From: Candidatus Berkelbacteria bacterium Licking1014_7
GTDB lineage: Bacteria; Patescibacteriota; UBA1384; GWA2-35-9; CG2-30-39-44
Direction: 5' to 3'
NCBI GenBank assembly: GCA_007376535.1
Contig: VMGK01000014.1
Span: forward strand, 1 to 38,027
Length of the DNA stretch: 38,027 bases
This document shows positions 6,422 through 34,694 of the stretch, piece by piece. The position numbers and the translations under genes were made by a program. A model generated the notes under the pieces. The model did no database searches, was not told where the DNA came from, and saw only the letters and a list, made by a program, of their open reading frames with translations. How positions within the stretch are numbered: position 1 is the first letter of the stretch; each line of letters begins with the position of its first letter.

Positions 6422-6600
6422 TATTATAGAGGTCGTTGAAGAATACGCTTTTGTAGCGTCCCGATATACATCGGGATAGGCGAGACAAGATAAAAATTTT
6501 GAAGCATATACAAAGTATACGATGAAAAATTTATTATGAAGTCGCAGCCAAAATTTAATAATTGCAGTAAAAATGGTATTCTTCAACGACCTCTATAATA
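6422..6600. mobile_element. MITE-like element with 25-bp perfect terminal inverted repeats
   Basis: The 25 bases from 6422 (TATTATAGAGGTCGTTG...) recur perfectly inverted at 6576-6600, giving a 179-bp element with no coding capacity. The termini resemble those of some IS5- or IS1182-type elements, but this is not certain. Inside are a TCCCGAT/ATCGGGA hairpin (6459-6476) and the GCAGCCAAAAT core (about 6543-6553) shared with the elements at 33981 and inside rnpB. Confidence 0.75.
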
Positions 6601-31491: not shown

Positions 31492-33966
31492 ATGGAAAAA
31501 CAACATTTGGATTACATAACAATCCGCGGTGCACGGGTGAATAATTTAAAAAATATCAACTGTAAAATTCCGCGCGACAAACTAACAGTCATTACTGGTC
31601 TCTCGGGTTCGGGAAAATCATCATTGGCATTTGACACAATTTTTGCCGAAGGGCAGAGGCGCTATGTCCAGTCAATGTCATCTTATGCCAGACAATTTTT
31701 AGGCACGATGGAAAAACCAGATGTTGACGAAATAAAGGGCTTATCCCCGGCGCTTTCAATTGACCAAAAGACCTCTGCTCGTTCTCCTCGTTCAACTGTT
31801 GGTACTATGAGCGAAATTTACGACTATTTACGATTAATGTTCATGCATATTGGTATTTTCCGTTGCGATTGCCCAAGTAAGCAAAAAATTTTTTCTAGTA
31901 AAAACAAAAATGCCACTGTTCAAAAATGCCACCAATGTCAACAGATTTTTACCAGACCCACTATGTCCTCTTTTTCTTTCAACAGCCCGGAAGGAGCGTG
32001 CCTTGAATGTCAGGGCTTGGGCGTAAAATTAGAAATTGATCCTAACTTAGTTATTCCGAACACAAAACTTACCTTAAATGAAGGCGCTGTCCGTCCTTGG
32101 CAAAGAATGCTTTCTGGTTGGCAATGGCAGAAAAAAGAAATGCAAAATTTTAGTAAAGACAACAAATTTTCTTTTAACACCCCGATAAATAAACTTTCCC
32201 CCAGAATCATTAAATCAATTATTTTTGGCGACGAAAACACCAACTTTTTAGGCATCTTGTCAATGATTAAAAAAAAATATCGTGAGACCAATTCTGAATA
32301 CACCAAAAAAGAAATTGAAAAGTATATGATTAAAAAAATCTGTCCGATTTGCCAGGGCGCGCGACTTAAAAAAGAAACTCTAATGGTAAAAATTAAAAAT
32401 AAAAATATTTACCAGTATTGCCAAATGGATCTTGAAAAACTACTCATAGAAATCCGGATGTTAACTTACGCAAAAATTTTATCGCCAGAAGAATGTGAAA
32501 TCATCAAGCCAATTTTAGATGAAATTGAAAAAAGAATCCAGTTTATGATTGATGTTGGTCTGTCCTATCTCGCGCTTGAGCGAAATTCCGACACATTGGC
32601 AGGCGGAGAAGCGCAAAGAATTCGGCTGGCCACTCAACTGGGCTCCGGACTAATGGGTGTCATATATATCTTAGACGAACCGACAATTGGACTGCACCCC
32701 AAAGATCAACAACAACTCATAAACGCGCTCATCACCCTACGCGATCTTGGCAACACTATCATTGTAGTTGAACACGAATCATCAATCATAAAAAAAGCGG
32801 ATTACATTTTAGATATCGGACCAGGCGCTGGTAAATACGGCGGAGAAATCGTCGCGCAGGGAAATCTTTCTCAAATCATTTCAAGTCCGAAATCCCTTAC
32901 TGGCAAATACTTATCAGGTAAAGTAAAGGTCTCAATTAAAAAGACCTATCAGCCCGATTTTAAGGACTTCATCACGATTGAAAAAGCAGCGCAATTTAAT
33001 CTCAAAAATATCACTGTCAAAATTCCGCTTTCTGCTTTTACTTGCGTTTCAGGCGTTTCAGGATCAGGTAAATCAACACTGATTAACAATATACTTGTAA
33101 GGCATTTAAAAAAACTTTTTTATCAAGCCAAAACAGAGCCGGGAAAGTTTGCTAAAATCAGCGGGGCGGATAAAATTAATAAAATCATCAATATCAATCA
33201 AGCGCCTATCGGTAGAAATGTCAGGTCAAATCCCGCCACTTATACCGGACTCTTTACTCTGTTGAGGGGGCTTTTTGCTAATCAAGAAAGCGCTAAGATA
33301 AAAAGATTTTTGCCCGCTCATTTTAGTTTTAACTTGAAATTGGGTCGTTGCGAACATTGCCGCGGCGACGGGGTCTTAAAATTTGAAATGCACTTTATGC
33401 CTGATGTTTTTATTATGTGCAGCAAATGTCATGGTAAACGATACAAAGACGAAATCCTCAACATAAAATATCAGGGAAAACATATTTTTGATGTATTAAA
33501 TTTATCAGTAAATGAAGCGATAAACTTTTTTAAAAATGAAAAACAAATAGTGACGAAATTATTGGTTTTGCAAAAAGTCGGCTTGGGCTATATAAAATTA
33601 GGACAAAACGCCACTGACTTGTCAGGAGGCGAGGCGCAAAGGGTAAAACTCGCGTCCGAACTGTCAAGAAGCTCAACCGGCAAAACGGTTTATGTTTTAG
33701 ACGAACCAACCTCAGGACTTCATTTTGACGATATCAAAAAATTGTTGGCTGTGCTTTTAGAATTAATTAAAAATGGCAACACCGTCATTGTGGTTGAGCA
33801 CAATTTAGATGTTATCAAAAACGCCGACTGGATAATTGATCTTGGTCCTGACGGCGGAGAAAAAGGCGGACGGTTGATTTTTCAAGGAACGGCTGACAAA
33901 ATAACAAAATGTCAAAAATCCTATACCGGAAGTTTTTTAAAAAATACTAGACTTCTCCCGGAATAA
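31492..33966 (+). CDS. uvrA: UvrA-type excinuclease subunit without UvrB-binding domain
   Basis: A twin-ABC ATPase of the UvrA family, which recognises bulky DNA lesions in nucleotide excision repair. It has Walker A GLSGSGKS at residues 36-43 and GVSGSGKST at 521-529, signature motifs [11 protein letters not shown] and [11 protein letters not shown], Walker [12 protein letters not shown] and [11 protein letters not shown], and zinc modules CPICQG, CLECQG and CEHCRG...CSKCHG. Between the first Walker A half and the GACLEC motif only about 45 residues separate [10 protein letters not shown] from [10 protein letters not shown]. The usual UvrB-binding domain of about 110 residues is missing. At 824 residues it resembles UvrA2/DrrC-type paralogues. 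Whether it works with UvrB is doubtful. Confidence 0.9.
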
Positions 33967-33980
33967 TTTTTCGTAGCGAA

Positions 33981-34113
33981 ACATAAAGCATTTTGAGCGA
34001 AAATTGTGAAGAACGAGGAAAGGTATATGGAATATCCATTGACGAGCTATGAACAATTTGCAGCCAAAATTGTTATGTTGTAGTAGAAAAGGTTATTGCG
34101 GAAGAAGTCTAAT
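33981..34113 (+). ncRNA. Candidate structured element with GCAGCCAA core, free copy
   Basis: The arms are nested helices: AACAT/ATGTT, then ATTTTG/CAAAAT, then AAATTGT/ACAATTT, with the strand GCAGC as a conserved internal loop, around an inner hairpin flanked by CGAGGAAAG and TTGACGAG. The same plan, with base changes that keep pairing, occurs inside rnpB (34209-34428) and in the MITE at 6422. Whether it is transcribed is unknown. Confidence 0.5.
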
Positions 34114-34156
34114 ATGTAGCGATTTGCAGGACAATATCAATGTCTGAAATTTTTTT

Positions 34157-34694
34157 GATTTTGAGTAACCGGTAAGCCGGGTTCTGTTTTGGACCACTAT
34201 CTATCTCAAGAGCCTGTTTAATAACTACATCCGATAGCTACGAATGGCTCATCTTGGCTGCAAAATGCGAATTACTCGTCAAGGTAGCTTGGGCTATCTT
34301 TCCTCGCAATTCACATTTTTCCTGCCCGCAATGCTTCGCATAGCGTTGCAGGCGGGCGCCTAAAATAATCTCATTCTCCCTGCCTGGCTGGCAGGCAGGG
34401 CTTCAGGAGCAGTGATTAAACAGGCTCTAAGCGTTGGAACTTGGTATTTTCTGGCGAGCATCCATTAAACAAAATACCAAGTCAGTCCAACTTGCGCCAG
34501 TATATGTTTGCACTGATGCCGATTACCCGACAAAAGGGTAAAAATTTACCGTTTCGCCATCACGAAGATGTTTGTTTTCTGTTGCACTTGATCTAAGGTC
34601 GCCCTTGCCTGGCTTGCGCCAGGATACCTGCTCGTGGCGCCCGGACTTTCCTCCCCCGCCAAAGCGAAGGCAGTGGTCTCGATTACTCAAAATC
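34157..34694 (-). ncRNA. rnpB: RNase P RNA (class A type) with a large insert in P18
   Basis: This is the catalytic RNA of RNase P, which removes tRNA 5' leaders. Conserved parts on the minus strand are GAGGAAAGTCCGGGC near the 5' end, GTGCAACAGAAA, GATGGCGAAACGG, a P15-like stem, AGATAGATAGTGG and ACAGAACCCGGCTTAC near the 3' end. The ends form a long P1 helix (34157-34171 with 34680-34694). The position of helix P18 is extended into a hairpin of about 220 bases by an element related to 33981. The overall length of about 538 nt is long for a CPR rnpB. Confidence 0.92.
34209..34428 (-). repeat. Palindromic insertion forming P18 of RNase P RNA
   Basis: The ends AGAGCCTGTTTAAT (34209-34222) and the perfect complement (34415-34428) form the P18 helix. 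Inside are a CCCTGCCTG/CAGGCAGGG hairpin, a CCGCCTGC/GCGGGCAGG-type palindrome, and the GCAGCCAA core with its helices. Confidence 0.8.

Follow-up and report, generated by a model that had tools for sequence, protein, structure and literature searches.

What kind of repeat adjoins the uvrA gene of Candidatus Berkelbacteria bacterium Licking1014_7, and what is it doing in the RNase P RNA gene (rnpB) as well? The window, the whole stretch of DNA that was analysed, is 38,027 nucleotides (nt) long; it forms contig C17 in a genome of 806 kb and 41 contigs. A reading of its letters alone (the sequence-only reading) had described three copies of a mobile structured element, here called element A (next to uvrA), element B (in rnpB) and element C. 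Our comparison suggests that they probably belong to a family of non-autonomous IS5-type elements, similar to miniature inverted-repeat transposable elements (MITEs), which is spread across the Candidate Phyla Radiation (CPR) and has a conserved single-strand rod fold.

Element A and its rod fold

Comparison with the other copies in the genome shows that element A is an inverted-repeat unit of 160 nt (33950-34109), with the ends GACTTCTCCC.. on the left and ..GAAGAAGTC on the right. The interval 33981-34113, originally taken as the element, is therefore wrong as its extent. The features of the complete unit are listed here.

33947..33949: CTA on the left flank, which may be a TA or a degraded 3-bp target duplication
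33950..34109, plus strand: complete element A; the sense strand is that with GCGA...GCAGC, and the ends are common to other genome copies
33950..33966, plus strand: left terminal inverted repeat GACTTCTCCCGGAATAA; compare the IS5-type ends TAGACTT(G/A)TTACGAA(A/T)TAA in L296/L292, described below
33973..33979, plus strand: outer loop, 5' strand GTAGCGA, opposite 34080-34086, GTAGTAG
33996..34000, plus strand: loop 1, 5' strand AGCGA, opposite 34060-34064, GCAGC
34001..34014, plus strand: 14-position helix, 5' strand, with its partner at 34046-34059; mid-helix tandem G.A in most copies
34015..34019, plus strand: loop 2, 5' strand GAGGA, opposite 34041-34045, GACGA
34060..34065, plus strand: loop 1, 3' strand GCAGCC
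34093..34109, plus strand: right terminal inverted repeat TTATTGCGGAAGAAGTC
34110-34112: right flank TAA

The fold on the sense strand is a rod. Its outermost part is the terminal repeat of about 18 bp, followed by the outer loop (GUAGCGA or AAGCGAG opposite GCAGYA or GCAGCUA), a helix, and loop 1 (AGCGA or GGCGA opposite UGYAGC). Exactly 14 positions separate loop 1 from loop 2, where GAGGA lies opposite GACGA and a central pair, G-C or C-G depending on the copy, is flanked by two tandem G.A steps. The middle of the 14-position helix has tandem G.A/A.G in 26 and 23 of 44 copies and is otherwise mostly Watson-Crick. An apical hairpin forms the innermost part of the rod. Across the copies, the spacing of the loops is constant and the sequence of the helices is variable. 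The core proposed earlier, GCAGCCAA, is thus a part of the real core, which consists of the facing loops 5'-(A/G)GCGA / 5'-UG(C/U)AGC, the 14 positions, and 5'-GAGGA / 5'-GACGA.

Relative to dinucleotide shuffles, the z-scores of the RNA folds are -6.2 (33945-34116), -11.6 (6422-6600) and -8.4 (the rnpB insert). These values, and the pairing in an alignment of 15 copies (see below), indicate that the common plan of the three copies is real.

Covariation, strand asymmetry and distribution

In the 15-copy alignment, 84.8% of the helix cells are paired, compared to 70.1% after shuffling (0 of 500) and 37-48% when slid. The number of cells altered on both sides is 64, compared to 23.4 after shuffling (0 of 500). 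The covariance model (R1) was built from this same alignment, and a blind test was therefore added, in which copies from GTDB genomes were chosen by their loops alone (GCGAA N13 GAGGA N16-26 GACGA N13 TGYAGCC). Among the 44 distinct copies selected in this way, the inter-loop helix is 90.0% paired, compared to 62.2% with the 3' arms exchanged (maximum 68.2% in 2000 shuffles), and most helix positions show several pair types. The claim that the bases change while the pairing is kept therefore holds in copies outside the model building. The sequence-only reading had also staked itself on further copies and on covariation once more copies were aligned; both were found.

A palindrome that is kept as double-stranded DNA should show G-U and A-C mismatches equally often on its sense strand. 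However, G-U outnumbers A-C by 55 to 14 in the deduplicated model-aligned copies (p 7e-7), by 33 to 12 in the fixed-geometry copies (p 0.002), and by 40 to 21 in the terminal repeats (p 0.02), all three p-values being optimistic for related copies. This excess points to selection on the sense strand to fold as a single strand. Moreover, the sense fold is more stable than the antisense fold in 41 of 44 copies with RNA parameters and in 42 of 44 with DNA parameters. These data support the earlier suggestion that a folded RNA or DNA is under selection, and narrow it to one strand that folds single-stranded.

The orientation relative to the genes appears random. Based on simple calls of open reading frames, 118 places could be scored: 43 copies are in sense and 42 in antisense between co-directional genes, 15 lie between convergent genes, and 18 between divergent ones. 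With such an arrangement, the selection on the fold most likely acts in the element's own cycle and not in host transcripts. A strict replication-strand preference was also considered; opposite orientations 2 kb apart in one genome (G180) argue against it.

Model R1 matches element A at 33989-34073 with 90 bits and finds 32 copies in its own genome at E<0.01. At E<=1e-5, copies are present in 21 of 61 relative genomes (20 of 54 genera) and in 28 of 240 genomes across a sample of the phylum (25 of 210 genera). The presence is patchy among genera, with up to 16 copies per genome elsewhere. In a BLAST search of the own genome with 33981-34113, 47 places match at E<=1, and many of these matches cover the ends only.

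The loop pattern occurs in at least 109 stretches of GTDB genomes, nearly all from CPR/Patescibacteria. Among the 80 listed records, most carry CPR names, about 18 are unnamed bacteria, and three have other names. The CPR names among the matches listed are Falkow-, Kerfeld-, Magasanik-, Moran-, Berkel-, Sung-, Saccharibacteria, Peregrini-, Uhr-, Kuenen-, Kaiser-, Taylor-, Lloydbacteria, and others. One match with a non-CPR name (L214) has no rod and is probably due to chance. Two others, in bins labelled non-CPR (L205, a Nitrospirae metagenome-assembled genome, and L235, a Negativicutes one), are real copies located at contig ends, and may be mis-binned. The pattern has no match in viral contigs. 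In Rfam 15, the window and 12 element-bearing loci give only tRNA and RNase P above the gathering threshold, and searches of the open literature returned no description of such a family, an absence that is not proof of novelty. The family is CPR-wide, previously unlisted, and much larger than three copies.

Ends, insertion sites and the other copies

Evidence for mobility comes from young copies in three genomes (G061-G063), which are 151-182 nt long. The 3-bp flanks are identical (TTA, TAA or TCA) in 15 of 19 complete copies, the TNA target duplication that is typical of IS5/IS1031-like elements. The units have terminal inverted repeats and are short and gene-less, like IS5-type MITEs, with a longest stop-free stretch of about 50 codons. 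The target duplications of the copies in the window are degraded, with TA only.

The ends are shared with autonomous insertion sequences (ISs) of the IS5 family, both in the same genome as structured copies (L266) and in relatives (L296 and L292). In genome G062, a 689-bp unit (contig C5, 18692-19380) has the ends GAACCTGTTCAAAATCTT, a TTA duplication, and a decayed transposase with DUF4096 and DDE_Tnp_1; the structured copies that share this genome end in GARCCTGTTCAAAATCTC. L296 and L292 (in G024 and G012) are ISs about 1.07 kb long that encode DDE_Tnp_4 transposases, 80% identical between different families. Their ends are TAGACTTGTTACGAAATAA and TAGACTTATTACGAATTAA; those of the structured elements in the own genome and in G001 are TAGACTTATTACGAAATAA. 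BLAST similarity is essentially confined to the ends of ~19 bp, which argues against an origin of the interior by deletion from an IS.

The TNA duplications and the shared ends bear out the description of the elements as mobile. Mobilisation in trans by IS5-type enzymes, present or former, is well supported in kind by these ends and duplications, and is putative for the own genome. As for an autonomous partner in the same genome, G062 has a decayed one, and searches with DDE_Tnp_1 and L296 reveal none in G000 (94% complete). In relatives, the IS5 fragment of G062 gives no match, which alone proves little. No gene recurs next to the copies. In a search for empty sites among genomes of the same genus, the flanks in G003 are without counterpart in G001. 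An IS982-like IS that adjoins a copy in G051 was rejected as a partner, as it has its own ends, CCGTGAATCCGG. In two genera, homologous proteins lie no more than about 1 kb from elements (L021:2722-3258 and L062:421-1017), the first being a LAGLIDADG homing endonuclease.

Elements B and C of the window, with the gene that holds B, are positioned as follows.

34157..34690, minus strand: rnpB, bacterial class A RNase P RNA (RF00010, 141.9 bits)
34210..34427, minus strand: element B, in the RNase P RNA gene at the P18 position, in the same sense as rnpB and bearing two additional side hairpins
6429..6593, plus strand: element C, a divergent member with long perfect ends GAGGTCGTTGAAGAATAC
6459..6476, plus strand: extra hairpin TCCCGATATACATCGGGA of element C, after GTAGCG

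Both are members of the family, as proposed, though divergent ones, and their exact ends had to be corrected to these positions. The match to RF00010 identifies rnpB as a class A RNase P RNA and places an insert of 204 nt at P18. Close relatives of element B are present at other sites of the genome, with L019 about 90% identical. In most relatives, the RNase P RNA has the sequence ..CGCTTAGATAGATG.. and lacks P18. The junction here is CGCTTA-[GAGCCTG...CAGGCTC]-TTGAGATAG, with the copy in sense orientation, and is consistent with an insertion at a TNA site whose duplication has changed (TTA/TTG). Element B is tolerated in rnpB at a site where a hairpin is normally optional. P18 is missing from the RNase P RNAs of most relatives in the class (L113-L136), and several other RNase P RNAs are enlarged at other places, for example that of G017, with 693 nt.

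Element C reaches only 23.3 bits in the core model (E 0.007-0.016). It retains the two outer GCG/GCAG loops, and the low score is due to the erosion of its apical GAGGA/GACGA loop. The extra hairpins noticed in elements B and C exist, but not strictly at the same loop: that of element C follows GTAGCG in the outer loop, and those in rnpB follow AAGC in the outer loop and GGCG in the inner loop. A TCCCGA..TCGGGA hairpin directly after GTAGCG or ATAGCG is found in element C, L007, L027:1848-1866 and L076. Its occurrence in another genome (G001) as well indicates inheritance or recurrent insertion.

Other observations concern related or neighboring repeats. A subtype of 173-182 nt in G062 and G063 (L276-L282) has a variable third hairpin on the 3' arm (..GGCAAGC[variable]GCGGTGAGAT..), giving a three-way junction. 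A second repeat class in the genome shares the ends and the outer loop (TTTTTCGTAGCGAAA / GGTAGAAAAGG) and has unrelated interiors, in which small nested hairpins and the string GAATGACGGCAGGTAGAAAAGG are frequent (L024:1840-2060, L024:7450-7170, L009:3305-3565, L012:2020-2260 and L013:2130-2395). The gene uvrA (31492..33966, plus strand, by Pfam) receives its stop codon from the left end of element A (33950-33966). The protein ends in ..LKNTRLLPE*, and the last six codons and the stop (TRLLPE*) overlap or fall inside this end. Another short palindromic repeat (AATAAAGAATGCC..GGATTCTTTATT) is located at 1912, 13258, 13861, 13920 and 27631 of the window, and the palindrome AACCTTGAATTACGAAATTCAAGGTT, probably a further repeat family, has four window copies (6782, 12221, 25453 and 35047).

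Possible functions of the fold and known relatives

The explanation that we consider probable is as follows. Elements of usually 150-180 nt, with terminal inverted repeats of ~18 bp, TNA duplications, IS5-like ends and an unrelated interior, would be cut and pasted by IS5-type transposases, acting in trans or formerly present. One strand (sense, GCGA...GYAGC) forms the rod of fixed geometry, with helices that vary while the pairing is kept, and with constant non-canonical joints (GCGA/GYAGC, tandem G.A, and GAGGA/GACGA). The fold may serve the element's cycle by stabilising its own transcript or single-stranded DNA, or by allowing proteins to bind to it. Between RNA and single-stranded DNA, we slightly prefer RNA. 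A bolder version, possible but doubtful in our judgement, is that of a selfish structured RNA that has spread CPR-wide with the ends of any available IS5-type transposase, the rod being its conserved identity and the RNA acting in its own transposition or persistence.

Several observations weigh against this explanation. The own genome and the copy-rich relatives G000, G002, G014 and G018 have no detectable DDE_Tnp_1 transposase, and the own genome has no detectable L296-like transposase. DDE_Tnp_1 and the elements are not associated, as 4 of 8 genomes with DDE_Tnp_1 carry elements. In the outer stem with fixed geometry, the G-U excess (41 compared to about 31 A-C) is not significant. Finally, the copies are related, and the significance of the G-U excess is overstated for this reason.

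The alternative that survives best, although we rate it as improbable, is that the folded strand is a single-stranded DNA hairpin, which forms while DNA is replicated or taken up. A transposase or recombinase would recognise it, as with attC sites and IS200/IS605 ends. The pairing and the G-U(T) excess extend to the outermost ends, and a transcript would need to start outside the element to include them; the random gene orientation and the preference for the sense strand in the DNA energy model (42 of 44) also agree with it. On the other hand, the inverted-repeat ends and TNA duplications indicate double-strand cut-and-paste by DDE enzymes, and the rod is absent from the IS5-type partners. The elements also differ from IS200/IS605-type single-stranded DNA transposons, which have subterminal hairpins and neither terminal inverted repeats nor a target duplication. 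Integron attC sites seem not to fit mixed orientations and repeated near-identical copies with TNA duplications, as judged from the sequences.

It seems unlikely that these are ordinary double-stranded MITEs, in which template-switch repair from arm to arm keeps a functionless palindrome and the constant mismatches serve for protein binding to double-stranded DNA. In favour of this, terminal repeats, target duplications and IS5-like ends are all MITE features, and decayed copies and nested insertions are common. However, strand-symmetric correction of the arms predicts equal G-U and A-C numbers, not 55:14 or 33:12, and should erase the mismatched loops, which are the most constant part. Moreover, the center of loop 2 switches between G-C and C-G and yet stays paired.

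Co-option by the host as an RNA segment that regulates or stabilises mRNAs has been proposed for ERIC or bcr repeats, both of which have been reported in transcripts (PMC2267715, PMC3446304). For the present family it is very improbable, given the random orientation over the 118 places (43 compared to 42, with 18 divergent and 15 convergent) and the patchy spread among genera, even though the rnpB copy and element A, after uvrA, are both in sense.

The favoured reading, of mobile elements with a selected single-strand rod, finds partial parallels among known systems. IS5-family MITEs are likewise short and gene-less, with terminal inverted repeats, TNA duplications, many copies and IS5-family ends. 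They differ from the present elements in that the interior here is no IS deletion derivative, and forms a fixed-geometry rod with conserved non-canonical joints that is kept across a phylum-level radiation. The ERIC, YPAL and Correia (NEMIS) repeats and the Bacillus bcr repeats are also intergenic palindromes of ~100-170 nt with long hairpins (PMC2267715, PMC3446304). However, they are limited to a species or genus group and are conserved in sequence, whereas here the helices covary, the loops are constant, and many CPR lineages are involved. REP/BIME sequences with RAYT transposases share GTAG in some loops and imperfect hairpins (PMC3733652); membership in this class was rejected on size, ends and TNA duplications, as REPs are 20-40 bp with a 5' GTAG tag and without terminal inverted repeats, while the present elements are 150-180 nt with such repeats. 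IS110 bridge RNAs and TIGR arrays are structured RNAs tied to mobile systems as well, some of them in CPR (PMC12045711), but the present elements have no guide or spacer and no adjoining Nop or IS110 protein, and their helices pair internally. A C/D-box or TIGR guide RNA was rejected, as the cmscan matches are weak and below threshold and there is no dual-repeat array (PMC12045711).

CPR bacteria are largely uncultured, and their genomes are small and poorly annotated. An insertion of the element explains an enlarged RNase P RNA among them, and the family offers a marker of gene flow between CPR lineages. With fold and loop chemistry constant across the radiation while the ends and nearly the whole helix sequence change, it would, if this reading is true, be a mobile element in which selection for single-strand structure is unusually clear.
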